Assembly (NCBI GenBank): GCA_947632415.1
Contig: CANRPB010000006.1
Location: 1-37,633 of the forward strand
Length of the DNA stretch: 37,633 nucleotides
Source: an uncultured Bacilli bacterium
GTDB lineage: Bacteria; Bacillota_I; Bacilli_A; RF39; UBA660
Direction: 5' to 3'
The stretch's first letter is position 1, and each line of letters starts with the position of its first letter. Below, piece by piece: positions 24,056-32,947 of this stretch. The notes below the pieces were generated by a model. It had not been told where the DNA came from and made no database searches. It saw only the letters and a program-made list of their open reading frames with translations. The position numbers and the translations under genes are program-made.

Positions 24056-24079
24056 AAAAAAAATCAGTATAAACTGATT
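24056..24079 (-). terminator. Terminator of the Tyr/Gly-rich protein gene
   Basis: On the minus strand AATCAGT pairs with ACTGATT around four bases and runs into eight Ts. The hairpin starts at the stop codon of the minus gene and backs onto the deacetylase stop. Confidence 0.66.
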
Positions 24080-24323
24080 ATCTGTATGGCCCGTAGTATG
24101 GTCCTGGGTATGGTCCGTAGTATGGTCTATAGTATGGTCTATTGTATCCATATCCGCCTCCCCAGAATGCTGGTGCGATGGCTGCTCCTGTTACTCCTCC
24201 TAGTAGAAATGGGAATGCGAATCCGCCTCCGATAAGTCGTTCGTCGTTGTTTTTTGGATATTCTTTTGGGTTATAGTTTTGTGGATAGTTATAAAATGGT
24301 TGATAATTGTTCATATTGTTCAT
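24078..24323 (-). CDS. Small Tyr/Gly/Pro-rich protein, unknown function
   Basis: The 81-residue protein has three parts: an Asn/Tyr/Pro-rich N-terminus (NNYQPFYNYPQNYNPKEYP), a hydrophobic glycine-rich centre (IGGGFAFPFLLGGVTGAAIAPAFWGGG), and a C-terminal repeat of Tyr-Tyr-(Arg/Gly)-Pro units (YYRPYYGPYPGPYYGPYR). A perfect aaaggag precedes the ATG, and a terminator follows. Tyr/Gly-rich short proteins of this look occur among spore coat and surface proteins, and a spoVID-like gene lies 3.4 kb away; that connection is inference. The repeat DNA is built from tatggtc/cgtagtatgg units. Confidence 0.78.
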   Translation of the reverse strand: MNNMNNYQPFYNYPQNYNPKEYPKNNDERLIGGGFAFPFLLGGVTGAAIAPAFWGGGYGYNRPYYRPYYGPYPGPYYGPYR

Positions 24324-24421
24324 AAGTATCTCCTTTCAATATATAATATGTGTTATTTATTTAAAGGTGAAAAACAGTTAAAAAAAAAGGTTTTTGTCAT
24401 ATACTTGATTAGGGTGGTATG

Positions 24422-25276
24422 ATGAGGAATTTTTTCAGTAAATTGGGTATGGCGACTTTAATTTGTTTGAGTTTTATAATTTCTGAGAAAACGGCGGTGG
24501 TTGTTAATGATATGGATGAGTTGATGACTGAGATTAAGGATAAGGCTGATAGTTATTATGTTGGTGGTGTTGATGCTGTTATAGATGATACGGGAATGGT
24601 TCCTGGTTTGTATGGGAAGCGGGTTAATGTTAAGAAAAGTTATAGTGAGATGAAAAAGATTGGTTTTTTTTGTGACAAGTATTTGGTATATGATGATGTG
24701 GAGCCTAATGTTAGTTTAAAGGATAATTATGATAAGGTAATTATTAGTGGTAATAGGTTAAAGAATATGGTTAGTTTGATGTTTAATGTTTCTTCTTCGG
24801 ATGATATTGGTGCTATATTGGATGTTTTGAATAGGGAAGATGTTAAGGCAACTTTTTTTGTTGATGGAAACTGGTTTGAGAGTAATAATGAGTTGACTTT
24901 GAGTCTTATTAAGGAGGGGCATACGGTTGGTAATTTGGCTTATGGTATGAATTATCAGAAGGCTGAGTATGTTTGGATGAATAATATTTTTAGAACGTTG
25001 GGGAAACAAAAGATTAATTATTGTTATGATACGGGTAATGTGGATGATTTGAAGGCTTGTGCGCTTCAGATGAGTTATACGGTTAGGCCTAGTATTGTGG
25101 TTGGTTCTAATCCCATGATGGAGATTAAGAAGCAGATTAAGGCTGGTTCTTTGATTTCTTTGGATGTTAATGAGAAGGTAAATAGTGAACTTGGTTTGAT
25201 TGTTAGTTATATAAAATCTAGGGGATATAGGCTTGATAATTTGACTAATCATTTGTCTGAAAAAAATAGTAATTAA
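24422..25276 (+). CDS. NodB-fold protein with lost active site (deacetylase pseudoenzyme)
   Basis: The 284-residue protein has an N-terminal hydrophobic segment (MATLICLSFIIS), a ~100-residue region ending in DKVIISGNRLKNMVSLMF, and a NodB-like domain recognised by ILDVLNREDVKATFFVDGNWFESN and LIKEGHTVGN. The catalytic TFDDGP is replaced by MFNVSS and the metal-binding HTxxH after GHxxGN by LAYGM, so no metal site remains. Start at ATG 24422 (or the ATG three bases earlier), behind gggtgg. It may bind glycan or a partner rather than cut. It is followed by a terminator and is separate from the active paralogue by one minus-strand gene. Confidence 0.8.
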   Translation: MRNFFSKLGMATLICLSFIISEKTAVVVNDMDELMTEIKDKADSYYVGGVDAVIDDTGMVPGLYGKRVNVKKSYSEMKKIGFFCDKYLVYDDVEPNVSLKDNYDKVIISGNRLKNMVSLMFNVSSSDDIGAILDVLNREDVKATFFVDGNWFESNNELTLSLIKEGHTVGNLAYGMNYQKAEYVWMNNIFRTLGKQKINYCYDTGNVDDLKACALQMSYTVRPSIVVGSNPMMEIKKQIKAGSLISLDVNEKVNSELGLIVSYIKSRGYRLDNLTNHLSEKNSN

Positions 25277-25344: not shown

Positions 25345-27672
25345 ATGATTAAAACGAACTTGCCAGTCATCTTATTAAAAGGAATAGTATTACTTCCTAA
25401 TAATGATATTAGATTGGAATTTAGTAATGATGATAGTAAAAATATAATTGATGTGGCTGAGTTGTTTCATGATAATGAACTTTTGGTTGTGAGTAATATA
25501 AAGTTATCGGAGAAGCATCCTGATATAAAGAATTTACCTAAGATTGGTGTTGTTTCTAAAATAACTCATAAGGTGGAACTTCCTAATGGTAAGACGAGGG
25601 TTGTGATTACTGGTAAGACGAGGGCTACTATTCATGAGTATTTGAATTTAAATAATAGTTTTGAGGTTTTAGAGTCGATTTTGTCTAATATTGATGATGA
25701 GGTATTGGATGAAAAGGAAGAGGTAGCGATTATAAGAAAGTTATATCGTGAGGTTGATGCTTGTGTTAAGACTGTACCTAGAATGAGTAATAGTGTGTTG
25801 TCGCTTATAATTAATTCTACTAGTTTGTCAAAGATGACTGATATAATTACTTCTTTTTTGCCGGTTGATGTTAATAGACAGAATGAGTATTTATTGGAGA
25901 CTAAGGCGAGTAATCGTGCGAAGATGGTTCTTGAGGATTTGTATAGGGAAGAAGAGTTGTATGAGATTGATAAGAAGATAGATGCTAATATCAAAAAGAC
26001 GCTTGATGATAGTCAAAAGGAGTTTATTTTAAGGGAGAAGATTAAGACTATTAAGGAAGAGTTGGGCGAGGTTAATTTAAAGGATCAAGAGATTGAGAAG
26101 ATTAAGGAAAAGATGTCTAAGTTGAAGGCTCCTAAGCATGTTAAGGACAGGCTTAATGAGGAGTTGAAAAGGTATGAGAGTTTATCGATAATGTCGCCTG
26201 AAATAAGTATTATTAAGAGTTATATTGATTGGTTATTGGATCTTCCTTGGAAGAATGAGACTAAGGATAATAATGATTTGAAGCAGGTTAGAAAAATTTT
26301 GGATGAGTCGCATTATGGATTGGATAAGGTTAAGACGAGGATTATTGAGTTTTTGGCTGTGAAGCAGATGACTCATGAACTTAGAGGTCCAATAATTTGT
26401 TTAGTGGGTCCACCTGGTGTTGGTAAAACGTCGCTTGCTTTTTCGATAGCTAAGGCGATTAATAGGAATTTTGTGAAGATTTCTGTTGGTGGTATTAACG
26501 ATGATGCGGAGATTATCGGACATAGGAAGACTTATATAGGTGCTAGTCCGGGTCGTATTATTTCTTCTATGAAGAAGGCTGGTAGTGTTAATCCGGTGTT
26601 TTTAATCGATGAGATTGATAAGATGACTAAGGATATTAAGGGTGATCCTGCTAGTACTTTGTTGGATGTTTTTGATCCGGAGCAGAATAAGTTTTTTATG
26701 GATAATTATATTGATGTGGAGTATGATTTGTCGAAGGTAATGTTTATTACGACGGCTAATTATATTGAACAAATACCTGAGGCTTTGAGGGATAGGTTGG
26801 AAATCGTTTATTTGAGTGGTTATACGGAGTATGAGAAGTTGGATATTTGCAAGAGGCATTTGATTAAGAATGTTGCTTCAGAGCATGGTATTGATGAGAA
26901 TTTGGTTAAGTTTAGTGATGATATTTTATTGGATATAATTAGATATTATACTAAGGAGGCTGGTGTTAGGGAGCTTGAGAGGAAGATTTCTACTATTATT
27001 AGGAAGATTGTTACGGAGATTGTTGTTGGTGATTCTTTGAAAAGTGAGATAGTTATTACTAAGGAGAAGTTAGTTGAGTATTTAGGAAAAGAGAAGTATC
27101 ATTATATTTATAAGGAAACTAAGGCTCAAGTTGGTGTTGTTAATGGTCTTGCTTATACTTCTTATGGTGGTGATGTTTTGCCAATAGAGGTTAATTTTTA
27201 TAAGGGCAAGGGCGATTTGGTTTTGACTGGTTCTTTGGGTGAGGTAATGCAGGAGAGTGCGAAGATTGCTCTTAGTTTTATAAAGTCTAATTGTAGTGAT
27301 TTTGCGATTAATTTTGATGATATTGTTGATAAGGATATTCATATTCATGTTCCTGAGGGTGCTATTCCTAAGGATGGTCCAAGTGCTGGTATTGCGCTTA
27401 CGACGGCTCTTATAAGTTCTATTTCTAATAAGGAGGTTCCTACTGATGTTGCGATGACGGGGGAGATTACTTTAAGGGGTAATGTTCTTGCGATTGGTGG
27501 TCTTAAGGAGAAGAGTACTGGTGCTTGTCGTAATGGTATTAAAAGGGTAATTATTCCTTATGATAATTTGTCTGATTTGGATGAGATTCCTGATGAGATT
27601 AAGGGTAATATTAGTTATATTCCTGTTAAGAGTTATGATGAGGTTTATAAGATAATATTTGGTAATGGTTAA
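25345..27672 (+). CDS. lon: ATP-dependent protease Lon (LonA type)
   Basis: The 775-residue protein has the full LonA layout. The N-terminal substrate domain covers ~1-200 and includes a coiled, Lys/Glu-rich linker. The AAA+ domain has Walker A GPPGVGKT at ~355 and Walker B FLIDEIDKM at ~420. The protease domain has catalytic Ser at ~680 (DGPSAGIA) and Lys at ~721 (GGLKEKSTG). Lon degrades misfolded and regulatory proteins in the cytosol. A very strong ribosome-binding site (aaggggggt) precedes the ATG. It is monocistronic, flanked by terminators. In Bacillus lonA lies in the same neighbourhood as spoVID-ysxE, as here. Confidence 0.98.
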   Translation: MIKTNLPVILLKGIVLLPNNDIRLEFSNDDSKNIIDVAELFHDNELLVVSNIKLSEKHPDIKNLPKIGVVSKITHKVELPNGKTRVVITGKTRATIHEYLNLNNSFEVLESILSNIDDEVLDEKEEVAIIRKLYREVDACVKTVPRMSNSVLSLIINSTSLSKMTDIITSFLPVDVNRQNEYLLETKASNRAKMVLEDLYREEELYEIDKKIDANIKKTLDDSQKEFILREKIKTIKEELGEVNLKDQEIEKIKEKMSKLKAPKHVKDRLNEELKRYESLSIMSPEISIIKSYIDWLLDLPWKNETKDNNDLKQVRKILDESHYGLDKVKTRIIEFLAVKQMTHELRGPIICLVGPPGVGKTSLAFSIAKAINRNFVKISVGGINDDAEIIGHRKTYIGASPGRIISSMKKAGSVNPVFLIDEIDKMTKDIKGDPASTLLDVFDPEQNKFFMDNYIDVEYDLSKVMFITTANYIEQIPEALRDRLEIVYLSGYTEYEKLDICKRHLIKNVASEHGIDENLVKFSDDILLDIIRYYTKEAGVRELERKISTIIRKIVTEIVVGDSLKSEIVITKEKLVEYLGKEKYHYIYKETKAQVGVVNGLAYTSYGGDVLPIEVNFYKGKGDLVLTGSLGEVMQESAKIALSFIKSNCSDFAINFDDIVDKDIHIHVPEGAIPKDGPSAGIALTTALISSISNKEVPTDVAMTGEITLRGNVLAIGGLKEKSTGACRNGIKRVIIPYDNLSDLDEIPDEIKGNISYIPVKSYDEVYKIIFGNG

Positions 27673-27699
27673 AAAGATAGAATAAACTATCTTTTTTTT
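27671..27699 (+). terminator. lon terminator
   Basis: AAAAAGATAG pairs with CTATCTTTTT over a six-base loop (aataaa), then Ts. The hairpin begins in the lon stop codon. A nearly identical hairpin occurs at 37534. Confidence 0.77.
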
Positions 27700-27724
27700 A
27701 ATAGTATTTATTAGGAGGGAAAAA

Positions 27725-28429
27725 ATGAAGAAAATAGTTCCGTTTAAAAAGAAGTTGACTTTTGATACTAATGTGAGTGAGATAACGAGTATTTCTTTGG
27801 AGAATACTTTGCATTGTTCTTTAAATGTTGTTGATGGTGAGTTGATTATTAATGGTAGTTATAAGATAACTGATACTAGTATTAAAGTTGATGATTTTGA
27901 GTTTAGGGTTCCTGTAAATATTGAGATTGATGATAAATATATAACGGATAATATTATTATTGATATTGATGATTTTTATTATGAGATTATTAATAGTAAT
28001 ATTTTGGAGGTTAATATAGATATTTTACTTGATAATTTGGTGTCTAAGCCTATGATTGATCAGGTTAGGGAAGAGGTTTTAAAGAGTTCTGAGGAGGATA
28101 AGGTTATGGAGCAAGAGGATTTGTTTGAAAGTGTAGTTAGCGATGATGTTCAGTTGGATAATTCTAGGTGTATTGATGAGGATGATGTTTATGAGGAGAT
28201 TGGTTCTACTAGTGTAACGAGTGATTTTAAGGATAATAATATTTTTGATTCTTTTAGTACGGGTGATGAGGATTATTCAACGTATTATGTTTATATTGTG
28301 CGAGAGGGTGATACGCTTGATAGTATTATGACAAAGTATGATATTTCAATGGAGAAGATGATGGAGTATAATGATGTTTCGGAGTTAAAACTTGGTGATA
28401 AGTTAATTATTCCTGAGTATAATGTTTAG
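27725..28429 (+). CDS. SpoVID-like protein with C-terminal LysM domain
   Basis: The 234-residue protein has three parts. Residues ~8-110 form a beta-rich domain (LTFDTNVSEITSISLENTLHCSLNVVDGELIING...) resembling the N-terminal domain of SpoVID, the Bacillus protein that drives spore-coat encasement. A long Asp/Glu-rich linker (~115-185) follows. A LysM domain (YIVREGDTLDSIMTKYDIS ... LKLGDKLIIPEYN) ends the protein. No signal peptide is present, as expected for a protein acting in the mother-cell cytoplasm. It overlaps the next gene, a CotS/YsxE-like protein, by eight bases; the same pair follows lonA in Bacillus. The family call is by architecture and context. Confidence 0.75.
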   Translation: MKKIVPFKKKLTFDTNVSEITSISLENTLHCSLNVVDGELIINGSYKITDTSIKVDDFEFRVPVNIEIDDKYITDNIIIDIDDFYYEIINSNILEVNIDILLDNLVSKPMIDQVREEVLKSSEEDKVMEQEDLFESVVSDDVQLDNSRCIDEDDVYEEIGSTSVTSDFKDNNIFDSFSTGDEDYSTYYVYIVREGDTLDSIMTKYDISMEKMMEYNDVSELKLGDKLIIPEYNV

Positions 28430-29333
28430 ATTAAATGAGGTTTTGAAGAAGAATAATTTGAAACCTCGTAAATATACTAAGAGGGATAGTGTAATGTTGG
28501 TTTCTACGGATAGTGGTAGGTATGTTGTTAAGGAGCGAACGCGGGATAATCAGTTTATTTATGATTATTTGAAGTCGCGTAGTTTTGATTATATGCCGAT
28601 GGTTGTTAATTGTTATAGTGATGATTATGAGATAACTAAGTATATTGAAAGTTTTGATATACCTGATGAGCAGAAGATTTTGGATTTGATTGATTTGGTT
28701 GCTTTACTTCATAATAAAACCACTCATTATAGAGAGGTTACTGAGGATGATTATAAGGAGATTTATGAGGATTTAAAGAATAATGTTGAGTATTTGTATA
28801 CTTATTATATGGATTTGATTACTCTTATAGAGAGTAAAGTGTATATGAGTCCAAGTGAGTATGTTTTGGCGCGAAATATTTCTAAGATTTTTTCTGATTT
28901 GGATTTTTTGAATGATGAAATTGATAAGTGGTATGATATTGTTAAGGAGAAGAAGAAAAAGCGTCTTGTGGTTTTGCATAATAATCTTGAATTGGATCAT
29001 TTTATTGTTAATAAGCAGAATTTTTTGACTAGTTGGGATAAGTCTAAGATTGATATACCTATTTTTGATATTTATAAGTTGTATTTGAGGCATGGTTTGG
29101 ATTTTGATTTTGCTGAGATTTTTAGAAGATATGAAAGGAATTATCCGCTATCTATTGATGAGAGAAAGTTGTTTTTTATTTTAATTTTGTTGCCTCCTAA
29201 AGTTGAGTTTAATAAAAGTGAGTATGAAAATACTAGAGAAGTTGGGAAAATGATTGATTTTATTTATAAGACTGAAATGTTTGTTTCACCATATTATTCT
29301 GAAAAAGGAGAAAAAGATAATGCATATAAATAG
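28422..29333 (+). CDS. CotS/YsxE-like kinase-fold protein, probably inactive
   Basis: The 303-residue protein resembles the spore coat CotS/YsxE/YutH family (aminoglycoside-phosphotransferase fold). The N-lobe has MLVSTDSGRYVVKERTRDN, with the ATP-binding Lys in VVKE. The hinge and alpha-rich middle follow (LIDLVALLHNKTTHYRE). The catalytic loop, normally HxDxxxxN, reads LHNNLELDHF, so the catalytic Asp is Asn, and the metal-binding Asp region reads SWDKSKIDIPIFDIYKLYLRHG. This suggests a pseudokinase. ATG 28422 lies inside the spoVID-like gene; the pair is probably coupled. The identification rests on pattern and synteny. Confidence 0.72.
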   Translation: MFRLNEVLKKNNLKPRKYTKRDSVMLVSTDSGRYVVKERTRDNQFIYDYLKSRSFDYMPMVVNCYSDDYEITKYIESFDIPDEQKILDLIDLVALLHNKTTHYREVTEDDYKEIYEDLKNNVEYLYTYYMDLITLIESKVYMSPSEYVLARNISKIFSDLDFLNDEIDKWYDIVKEKKKKRLVVLHNNLELDHFIVNKQNFLTSWDKSKIDIPIFDIYKLYLRHGLDFDFAEIFRRYERNYPLSIDERKLFFILILLPPKVEFNKSEYENTREVGKMIDFIYKTEMFVSPYYSEKGEKDNAYK

Positions 29334-29558: not shown

Positions 29559-29936
29559 GGGGATGTTAGGTTTCGACAGGGTTAAATCGGTATGAACTGC
29601 AAGTCGGTGGGAATCGTTATATCCAAAAAAAAATAACTGGAAATAAAATTAAAAATGCATTTGCTTCAATGTTCAAGGGTAACGTTGTAGCCTACGCTTA
29701 ATTTAGTTTAAGAAGTGCGACTTTCTTTTTTCTCTTTCCCATGGGGATTTTAGAAGGTTCAATTTTAGTGGGATATACTAATATTTTGCTTAGGAGTATT
29801 AGTGAATATTATAAGCTTACTATGTATGGGTTGTTAGTTACTAACATAACATAGGAATTTATATAACTAACTAAACTTGTAGATGTTTATATGGAAATAA
29901 TTTTGGACAGGAGTTCGAATCTCCTCATCTCCACCA
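29559..29936 (+). ncRNA. ssrA: tmRNA (SsrA)
   Basis: The 378-nt RNA starts GGGGATGTTAGGTTTCGACAGG, typical of tmRNA, and ends CATCTCCACCA with an encoded CCA. The first seven bases pair with the last seven before ACCA. The T-arm is visible as AGGAGTTCGAATCTCCT. The tag frame most likely begins at GGA 29639, after ataact, and ends at TAA 29699, giving a 20-residue tag ending GNVVAYA, a variant of the usual ALAA end. A poly-A run precedes the tag, and pseudoknot-forming stems follow it. tmRNA with SmpB rescues stalled ribosomes. Downstream DNA looks like an integrated accessory segment. Confidence 0.95.
29925..29936 (+). repeat. Possible attachment-site copy 1 (tmRNA 3' end)
   Basis: TCATCTCCACCA, the last bases of tmRNA, recurs as TCAGCTCCACCA at 30687 (11 of 12 identical, same orientation). 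tmRNA 3' ends are common integration targets. Confidence 0.4.
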
Positions 29937-30095: not shown

Positions 30096-30353
30096 ATGAG
30101 TACAATAAATATAACTAATGCTAGAGCAAGCTTATACCAATTGGTATCAGATGTTAATGTAGGTTTTAATCCTATTACTATTGTAAATAATAAGGGAAAA
30201 AATGCTGTATTAATATCTGAAGATGAATGGAAAAATATTGAAGAAACATTATTTTTATCAAGCATTCCAGGTTATGTAGATAATATTAACAATATAAGAA
30301 AAAATGAAAATTGGGAATCAGCAAAAAAATATGAAAAGGATGAAGAATGGTAA
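30096..30353 (+). CDS. Type II antitoxin, Phd/YefM family
   Basis: The 85-residue protein begins MSTINITNARASLYQLVSDV, close to the YefM N-terminus (NYTELRxNL...), followed by PITIVNNKGKNAVLISEDEWKNIEETLFL, the Phd/YefM core that binds DNA. The C-terminal Lys/Glu-rich part would wrap the toxin. It ends with a seven-base overlap with the toxin gene. Codon use is A-rich compared with the G+T-rich neighbours, a sign of transfer. Confidence 0.9.
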   Translation: MSTINITNARASLYQLVSDVNVGFNPITIVNNKGKNAVLISEDEWKNIEETLFLSSIPGYVDNINNIRKNENWESAKKYEKDEEW

Positions 30354-30622
30354 ATATATATACAATTAAGTTTTCTAAACAGGCAGAAAAAGATAAATTA
30401 AAACTAAAAAATTCTAATCTTGATAAAAATTGTAAAAATATATTAAATCTAATGATGGAAAATCCTTTTTGTTATCCACCATCATATGAAAAATTAACTG
30501 GCGAATTATCAGGACTTTATTCTAGAAGAATTAATAGACAACATCGAATTGTTTATGAAGTAGATGAAGAAAAAAAAGAAATTCATATTATTAGAATGTG
30601 GACTCATTATGATAAAATTTAG
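30347..30622 (+). CDS. Type II toxin, Txe/YoeB family mRNA interferase
   Basis: The 91-residue protein matches YoeB/Txe. It has FSKQAEKDKLKLKNSN, KNILNLMMENPF, PPSYEKLTGELSGLYSRRINRQHRIVYEV and ends IIRMWTHYD. The RRINRQHRIVYEV and C-terminal HYD motifs contain the family's catalytic residues (Glu in the central part, Arg, and a C-terminal His). YoeB cuts mRNA at the ribosomal A site when freed from its antitoxin. It is translated from an ATG inside the antitoxin stop region. Confidence 0.9.
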   Translation: MVNIYTIKFSKQAEKDKLKLKNSNLDKNCKNILNLMMENPFCYPPSYEKLTGELSGLYSRRINRQHRIVYEVDEEKKEIHIIRMWTHYDKI

Positions 30623-31492: not shown

Positions 31493-32947
31493 ATGGAGTT
31501 GGATTTAAATACAATAAAGGATTTGGATTCTAAGCATTTATTTAAGTTGTTATTGCCGGTTATTAATGATGTTTTTTTATCTTTTAAGTATGTAGGAATA
31601 GGTGGGGCTAAGTATAGAAAAATTGTTTTATCGGAAATAAAAAAGTCTAAAGAGACGTATTTGGGAAATGGTTCTTATGCTGTGTTTATAGAGAAAAAAA
31701 TTACAGATGAATTGCATAGGATTGTTCGTGAGTCTTTGGCAATTAAGGATGTTTCATTTGAGATAATAAGTAATTATATTAATCAATATTTTGGTGCTGA
31801 TGCTTTGAATAATTTGAAAAAATTGTTTGCTTTTTTTGAGGATTTTTCTTTTGTACCTAGTATGGATTTGTTGATTGGTTTATTGAGGAAGAATAAAGGT
31901 TTTTTTGAAACAGTTGAGTGTGTATTTAAGGATTATTGCTTGCAAATAATGTCTTGTGAAGATATACTTAATAGTAATTTTTTTATTATGATAATTGATT
32001 CATATTGTATTGTTAATAATGTTGAGATAGATAGTTTTTTTGGTAATGTTGAAGCTGATGGTGGTGTTTTTCATGATGGTATTAATGTTTATTTGAGGGA
32101 AGTTGATAGGAAACCTGTGTTAACAAATGAGCAGGAAGTTCAGCTTGTCAGTAGAATTAAGGCTTTTGATGGAAGTGCTAAAAAGCAGTTTATGGAGAGT
32201 AATTTAAAGTTAGTGGTTAATATTGCTAAAAAATATTGTAATTGTGGTTTATCATTTTTAGATTTAATACAGGCTGGTAATTTAGGATTGATGAAGGCAG
32301 TTGATGGTTATGATGTAGGAATGGGGTATAGATTTTCTACTTATGCGTTTTATAATATTAGGAATGCGATTATTTGTGCTATTAATGATAAGGATGTTAG
32401 ATTGTCTAGTTATTTACATGGTAGTTTTTGCACATATAATATGGTGTATGAATCTTTGAAGAATGAGTTGGGAAGGGTTCCTACAGTGGTGGAGCTTGCT
32501 GATAAGGTGGGAATTTCTGTTTCAAATGTTCAAGAATTGCTTAGTTTTTATGTTGATATTTTAATTGGTGATGTTTCTTCATTAGAGTTTTCACAAGATG
32601 TATTATTATTTGATAAAAAAAGTACAGATAATCATAAAGGTAATATGAAAAGGGAAGATTTTTTAAAAATGTTGAGGTTGTTAAGATCTCCTATTTTTGA
32701 AAAAGTGCTTGGTATGTTGTCAGTTAAGGAGGCAATAATTATTTCTTTAAGGTTGGGATATGTTGATGAAAAATTTTTTTCTACGGAGTCTATTGCTAAG
32801 TTTTTAGGAATGAATGAAGTGGAAGTGAGGGAAATAGTTAAGAAGGTTTTAATAGTTTACAAAGAATGTTTTAATGATTTTATAGATGGCGCTATTGAAG
32901 TTTTGACTGATCAAAGTAGAGTATTATCTCTTGGCAATTTAGAATAA
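31493..32947 (+). CDS. Sigma-70 family RNA polymerase sigma factor with long N-terminal extension
   Basis: Residues ~196-484 form a sigma factor: region 1.2/2.1 (INVYLREVDRKPVLTNEQEVQLVSRI), region 2 (ESNLKLVVNIAKKY, LSFLDLIQAGNLGLMKAVDGYD, YRFSTYAFYNIRNAI), region 3 (GRVPTVVELADKVGIS) and region 4 (SVKEAIIISLRLGY ... STESIAKFLGMNEVEVREIVKKVL). The first ~195 residues match no domain I know. A segment in it (GSYAVFIEKKITDELHRIV) vaguely echoes the FSTYAFYNIRNAIICAI helix, so it may be a decayed duplicate of region 2; that is speculative. Region 2.4 departs from the housekeeping consensus (NAIICAIND), so promoter choice likely differs. A strong aggggg site precedes the ATG. Confidence 0.85.
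   Translation: MELDLNTIKDLDSKHLFKLLLPVINDVFLSFKYVGIGGAKYRKIVLSEIKKSKETYLGNGSYAVFIEKKITDELHRIVRESLAIKDVSFEIISNYINQYFGADALNNLKKLFAFFEDFSFVPSMDLLIGLLRKNKGFFETVECVFKDYCLQIMSCEDILNSNFFIMIIDSYCIVNNVEIDSFFGNVEADGGVFHDGINVYLREVDRKPVLTNEQEVQLVSRIKAFDGSAKKQFMESNLKLVVNIAKKYCNCGLSFLDLIQAGNLGLMKAVDGYDVGMGYRFSTYAFYNIRNAIICAINDKDVRLSSYLHGSFCTYNMVYESLKNELGRVPTVVELADKVGISVSNVQELLSFYVDILIGDVSSLEFSQDVLLFDKKSTDNHKGNMKREDFLKMLRLLRSPIFEKVLGMLSVKEAIIISLRLGYVDEKFFSTESIAKFLGMNEVEVREIVKKVLIVYKECFNDFIDGAIEVLTDQSRVLSLGNLE

Follow-up and report, generated by a model that had tools for sequence, protein, structure and literature searches.

Two overlapping ORFs downstream of lon in a genome of the order RF39 resemble spoVID and ysxE of Bacillus, and they raise the question of whether a bacterium with so reduced a genome retains sporulation coat assembly or carries a remnant of it. 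The pair lies in a window of 37,633 nucleotides (contig CANRPB010000006.1 of assembly GCA_947632415.1, forward strand), which is one entire contig of a draft genome (1.388 Mb, 119 contigs, 92.9% complete, with 1.3% contamination estimated). Gene identity, synteny, selection, the promoter motif, co-loss, the presence of SpoIVA, CotE, and sigma factors, and the loss of a kinase Asp were determined by computation. Very probably, the pair is orthologous to the Bacillus spoVID-ysxE operon in shortened form, and this RF39 bacterium has kept an endospore programme. The features to which the text refers are as follows.

24419 to 25276, plus strand: gene for a YlxY-like polysaccharide deacetylase (TIGR02873, E = 1.3e-36)
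25345 to 27672, plus strand: lon, encoding a LonA-type ATP-dependent protease, the syntenic anchor (TIGR00763, 850.9 bits, above cut-off)
27670 to 27699, plus strand: intrinsic terminator hairpin of lon, AAAAAGATAG - AATAAA - CTATCTTTTT plus T-tract (inverted-repeat scan)
27680 to 27707, plus strand: candidate sigmaE-type promoter of spoVID, with -35 GAATAAA at 27680 to 27686 and -10 AATAGTAT at 27700 to 27707
27713 to 27719, plus strand: Shine-Dalgarno-like AGGAGGG of spoVID (read from the sequence)
27725 to 28429, plus strand: SpoVID-like coat morphogenetic protein, 234 aa (matches to PF01476 LysM, PF20918, and TIGR02907)
28422 to 29333, plus strand: YsxE-like bacterial spore (pseudo)kinase, 303 aa (TIGR02904, E = 1.5e-31)

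Identity of the overlapping ORFs

The SpoVID-like ORF is composed of an N (SPOCS) domain at approximately residues 1 to 105, a disordered acidic linker, and a LysM domain at residues 190 to 230. It scored 37.7 bits against LysM PF01476 (cut-off, 20.9) and 21.1 bits against SPOCS_spoVID-N PF20918 (E = 3e-4), the latter under the cut-off of 27.1. Among the 21 aligned SpoVID-like relatives, PF20918 was matched by 16 (best E = 2.6e-9) and LysM by all; the preliminary description of this DNA, made from its letters, had read the protein as a SpoVID-like N domain plus LysM, a reading that these matches support even with the ORF's own PF20918 score below threshold. Similarity to TIGR02907 spore_VI_D was weak (30.2 bits versus an equivalog cut-off of 169.85; the model has 344 positions and the protein 234 residues), and a 218-aa SpoVID-like homologue adjoining ysxE in another family of the class scored 33.5 bits against the same model. 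In the AlphaFold prediction, pLDDT exceeded 90 over residues 1 to 110, an all-strand N domain, and over most of the LysM domain, with values below 50 in the linker. Foldseek searches of this model returned just sub-threshold matches to alpha-crystallin-like beta-sandwiches (best E = 7e-3), and thus the search linked the N domain to no protein of solved structure. Directly N-terminal to LysM, the place of the SpoIVA-binding region A in SpoVID, there is a conserved (S/I)(L/I)F motif, with F174 invariant in the alignment of SpoVID-like relatives (A2).

The second ORF had been described as CotS/YsxE-like, and only the YsxE half of that label stands. The ORF scored 109.8 bits against TIGR02904 spore_ysxE, below the equivalog cut-off of 263.55, and all 22 YsxE-like relatives matched this model. 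Since that score is far above the 30.9 bits obtained with the CotS model TIGR02906, the ORF at 28422 to 29333 is YsxE, and its assignment as CotS was ruled out. Pfam matches to Ribonuc_2-5A and APH were weak, fell below cut-off, and were discarded. The matches of the two ORFs to SpoVID and YsxE models are well beyond chance.

The AlphaFold model of the YsxE-like protein has a kinase-like fold, for which the top Foldseek match was B. subtilis YtaA/CotI, likewise a kinase-like protein of the spore coat (2q83; E = 1e-8, TM = 0.64, probability 1.00); 2q83 was also the sole match in a sequence profile search. In all 22 aligned relatives the HxD motif is replaced by H186-N-(N/H), and the protein is therefore predicted to be a pseudokinase that has lost the catalytic Asp (D239 of YtaA) while keeping the structural His/Asp. 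Also invariant in this alignment are D216, which aligns to YtaA D269, and H97, which judging by motif probably corresponds to H148. Several spore kinases have been described as pseudokinases, and ysxE mutants of B. subtilis form weaker spores (PMC2860764), with no maturation in ysxE mutants of B. anthracis (PMC12700454).

Gene order, promoter layout, and selection across RF39

The end of lon is separated from the start of spoVID by 52 bases, and spoVID overlaps ysxE by 8 bases. This neighbourhood had been likened to lon...spoVID-ysxE of Bacillus, where the order is lonA, ysxC, hem genes, spoVID, ysxE, valS; the gene order agrees, but the genes between lon and spoVID in Bacillus are missing here. 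The order lon - EngB/YsxC-like GTPase - spoVID - ysxE, found within the same class but in a different family (L156), is intermediate towards this Bacillus arrangement, and the start of a ValRS-like gene was read by eye 3' of ysxE in one RF39 locus (L034). The YlxY-like deacetylase gene, which has a CATATACT -10-like box approximately 15 to 22 nt 5' of its start, takes the place of lon beside spoVID in some relatives (directly upstream in eight named loci).

Other genes were observed around these. An 81-aa Tyr/Gly/Pro-rich ORF without a Pfam match (24078 to 24323, minus strand) lies between two deacetylase genes and resembles a small coat protein. A tmRNA gene is located just 3' of ysxE (29559 to 29936; Rfam RF00023, 158 bits). 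Two small genes at 30096 to 30622 read by eye like a YefM/YoeB-type toxin-antitoxin, and a big divergent RpoD-like sigma factor of 484 aa is encoded at 31493 to 32947. Two further unusual sigma factors (663 and 365 aa) are encoded on another contig of the genome (G000:C65), and a normal RpoD is present as well.

The candidate spoVID promoter and the lon terminator occupy the same bases, with the loop of the hairpin holding the -35 and the T-tract forming the promoter spacer. Upstream regions were scored for a two-block motif consisting of ATA, 14 to 18 bases, and (C/A)ATAN(A/T)NT, which was present in 60 of 79 spoVID upstream regions versus 31 of 293 control upstream regions (Markov shuffles gave an expectation of approximately 10). 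The strict -10 CATA(C/T)AnT occurred in 43 of 79 and 11 of 293, respectively. When the regions were aligned on the -10 alone, an ATA -35 block that had not been selected for emerged at fixed spacing. The -10 of the window, AATAGTAT, matches less well than the family consensus. A sigmaA promoter was considered and rejected, with a TTGACA-like -35 at sigmaA spacing in 0 of 74 aligned promoters. A -35 lying under a hairpin of at least 5 bp with a T-tract was found in 36 of 74 loci, including that of the window. The two-block motif fits the sigmaE consensus. In B. subtilis, spoVID is controlled by sigmaE (PMC517825), and at the level of the motif spoVID-ysxE of RF39 is a candidate for the same control. 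The placement of promoter in terminator may be a compact packing that separates vegetative lon transcription from that of the mother cell.

As sampled, RF39 comprises a single family of approximately 100 genera with genomes of 0.6 to 1.9 Mb. All of the closest named homologues of the pair were from metagenome-assembled genomes of uncultured Bacilli, Tenericutes, or Mollicutes, among them “Candidatus Faecisoma merdavium,” a member of RF39 (PMC8035907). The preliminary description had placed the DNA in a lineage related to Mollicutes, correctly, RF39 being a relative of Mollicutes within the Bacilli. A SpoVID-like gene was directly 5' of ysxE in 78 of 80 named loci (the remaining two were at contig ends), the overlap was kept in 76 of these 78, and lon preceded the pair in 47 of the 69 named loci whose flanking sequence was long enough. 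Between close relatives, the median dN/dS was 0.134 for SpoVID (51 pairs) and 0.121 for YsxE (94 pairs), with a maximum of 0.26.

Sporulation genes and alternative explanations

Further sporulation genes were sought in the same genome by profile search. SigE (320.2 bits) was found with SpoIIGA directly 5', as were SigK (305.8 bits), SigF beside SpoIIAA, SigH, Spo0A (E = 1.6e-40), SpoIVA with all three domains, CotE (E = 8e-52), and a SleB-like cortex-lytic enzyme. Two other genes that the preliminary description had named, sigG and safA, were not found in this assembly. Relatives do carry a SigG-like gene (356 bits in G546, of the same genus), and the contig end lies just 3' of spoIIGA-sigE (G000:C9:1-1692, L011), which sigG follows in Bacillus; because the contig stops after sigE and relatives carry the gene, the missing SigG is most likely an assembly gap. 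No SafA was identified in this genome, where a LysM-only protein (G000:C14) was not assignable as such. For SpoIIAB, there was no HATPase_c_2 match in this genome, and in 60 RF39 genomes matches occurred just in frames of approximately 350 to 770 aa, none of them SpoIIAB-sized. On the minus strand of G000:C13:707-1718 (L012), spoIIAA overlaps directly into sigF without spoIIAB between them. Opposite a SleB-like gene (G000:C96:208-2837, L157) lie the genes of two multi-LysM proteins, the second of which apparently also has an amidase domain; this cluster has a likely function in cortex hydrolysis.

Across 288 RF39 genomes, YsxE was found in 256, SpoIVA above cut-off in 257, CotE above cut-off in 260, and Spo0A in 273. 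YsxE, SpoIVA, and CotE were jointly absent from 15 genomes versus 0.3 expected, some of the individual absences being assembly gaps or divergence. Pairwise co-absence was significant (Fisher test, P = 6e-11 to 2e-12, values inflated by shared ancestry). Spo0A was absent or degenerate (very divergent) in 13 of the 15 genomes lacking all three, which are probably cases of recent sporulation loss inside RF39. Four of the 15 belong to one genus (G024, G090, G191, and G197), in addition to 11 others. The pattern of absences is one of whole-programme loss in a few lineages and retention elsewhere. Two assemblies of approximately 0.8 Mb (G070 and G071, 92% complete) carry YsxE, SpoIVA, Spo0A, and CotE, and several RF39 assemblies with these four genes are of approximately 0.8 Mb at 89 to 92% completeness.

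These results bear on what the pair now does. That it is a sporulation remnant undergoing decay, in a lineage no longer making spores, an option that the preliminary description had kept beside coat assembly, would be in keeping with the reduced genome, the lack of any SpoIIAB match in this genome and of a SpoIIAB-sized one in 60 RF39 genomes, the clear disappearance of the programme from some RF39 genomes, and the missing genes noted by Field et al. (PMC10868615). It is nevertheless improbable, because dN/dS is low (0.134 and 0.121), synteny is conserved with the overlap in 76 of 78 loci, and the pair is lost together with other spore genes; moreover, both ORFs are intact, the promoter motif is retained, and Spo0A, SpoIVA, CotE, SigE, SigF, and SigK are all intact in the genome. 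Coat assembly, the other half of that statement, is supported by the profile matches and by these other sporulation genes.

Repurposing of a LysM protein and an APH-like protein for a vegetative envelope role unrelated to spores is very unlikely. Both folds are common, and a -10 such as CATATAAT also includes a sigmaA-like TATAAT, but the profile matches are specific to YsxE and SpoVID-N, no sigmaA -35 was present in 74 promoters, which have an ATA -35 at sigmaE spacing instead, and the pair is co-lost with SpoIVA and CotE. It can hardly be, either, that the sporulation genes lie on contaminating contigs from other Bacilli species in the metagenome bin: the draft is fragmented and its estimated contamination is 1.3%, yet every one of the nearest relatives of the pair comes from an RF39-type genome, and the same genes occur in little-fragmented genomes of this type, such as G111 (1 contig) and G157 (approximately 5 contigs). 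A shortened spoVID-ysxE operon within a retained endospore programme is the preferred explanation. Because the pair is intact and under selection across the order, alongside the rest of the sporulation set, very small RF39 genomes probably still make coated endospores.

Proposed working and relation to known systems

Protein contacts, checkpoint, coat role, and spore formation of the RF39 pair are modelled here on Bacillus. Spo0A, SigH, SigF, and SpoIIGA would bring about SigE activity in the mother cell, and SigE would transcribe spoVID-ysxE from the promoter folded into the lon terminator. With the promoter inside the terminator, the vegetative lon transcript would end just ahead of the start of the developmental transcript. 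In B. subtilis, SpoVID is anchored by SpoIVA, to which it binds via region A together with the LysM half; its outer-coat partner is CotE, and forespore encasement by SafA and CotE is made possible by the SpoVID N domain (PMC6282716). Free SpoVID LysM sequesters lipid II, halting cortex synthesis when SpoIVA mis-assembles (PMC10659427). By analogy, SpoIVA would hold RF39 SpoVID on the forespore via the C-terminal part of SpoVID, the N domain would bring in CotE and further coat proteins, allowing the forespore to be encased by the coat, and LysM could bind the peptidoglycan precursor, tying cortex synthesis to correct SpoIVA assembly. Since RF39 SpoVID retains both ends and sheds most of the middle, it could still serve in encasement and perhaps in the checkpoint. 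YsxE, encoded by the overlapping gene, would be translationally coupled to SpoVID and may be a coat component with a non-catalytic kinase fold, required if spores are to attain full maturation or resistance.

The RF39 protein shares with B. subtilis SpoVID the N domain, low-complexity linker, and C-terminal LysM, and its gene shares the position downstream of lon, the ysxE directly after, and the sigmaE-type promoter, in a genome that likewise encodes SpoIVA and CotE. Unlike the 575-aa B. subtilis protein, it has 234 aa, with the middle cut to a short acidic linker and profile scores below curated cut-offs; the locus differs in lacking hem genes between lon and spoVID, and the genome in having no identified SafA. 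As in Bacillus YsxE, whose family includes CotI/YtaA, CotS, and YutH, the best profile is that of YsxE, the kinase-like fold is nearest YtaA, the gene overlaps spoVID from downstream, and the catalytic Asp is lost as in the pseudokinases of the family. In contrast to Bacillus YsxE, the RF39 protein scores approximately 110 bits versus the cut-off of 263.55 and has its own highly conserved LLHxKTT and LHN(N/H)LxLxHF. Clostridial SipL, which combines SPOCS/DUF3794 with LysM and binds SpoIVA, is similar to the RF39 protein, a putative partner of SpoIVA, in its SPOCS-type domain and C-terminal LysM. However, SipL has three DUF3794 domains (PMC6436350), whereas the RF39 protein matches SPOCS_spoVID-N and its gene adjoins ysxE.

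In a 2012 survey, most bacilli but no clostridia had spoVID and ysxE, and cultured spore-formers had genomes larger than 2.3 Mb, with the exception of “Candidatus Arthromitus” at 1.5 to 1.6 Mb (PMC3533761). RF39 is comparable to these segmented filamentous bacteria in being host-associated, with a reduced genome and a complete spore programme, which for RF39 is predicted from genes; the papers retrieved report no RF39 spore. “Candidatus Arthromitus” differs in being clostridial, a group reported without spoVID and ysxE, and several RF39 assemblies are smaller still. Sporulation of RF39 was predicted by Field et al. (2024), who also described spoIIAB as reduced or absent (PMC10868615), agreeing with the present analysis in order, spore-forming conclusion, and spoIIAB loss; that study was KEGG-based, and SpoVID and YsxE are unnamed in its main text (PMC10868615). 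Predicted sporulation and spoIIAB loss in RF39 were thus already known, and the new elements are the compact pair of SpoVID and YsxE with its partners CotE and SpoIVA, the layout of the promoter, the pattern of co-loss, and the presence of the whole set in assemblies of approximately 0.8 Mb.

A wider proposal is offered tentatively, as possible but somewhat short of likely: RF39 would include endospore formers with the smallest genomes known for such bacteria (down to approximately 0.8 to 0.9 Mb), with a minimal SpoIVA-SpoVID-CotE-YsxE coat core, SigF switching without SpoIIAB, and SigE promoters compressed into upstream terminators. That the coat hub and its partner are intact, under selection, and equipped with a sigmaE-type promoter in gut genomes of 0.8 to 1.7 Mb shows which coat parts survive extreme reduction, and RF39 SpoVID offers a short natural version for dissecting the coat checkpoint. 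The findings support spores as a route by which uncultured RF39 gut bacteria spread.
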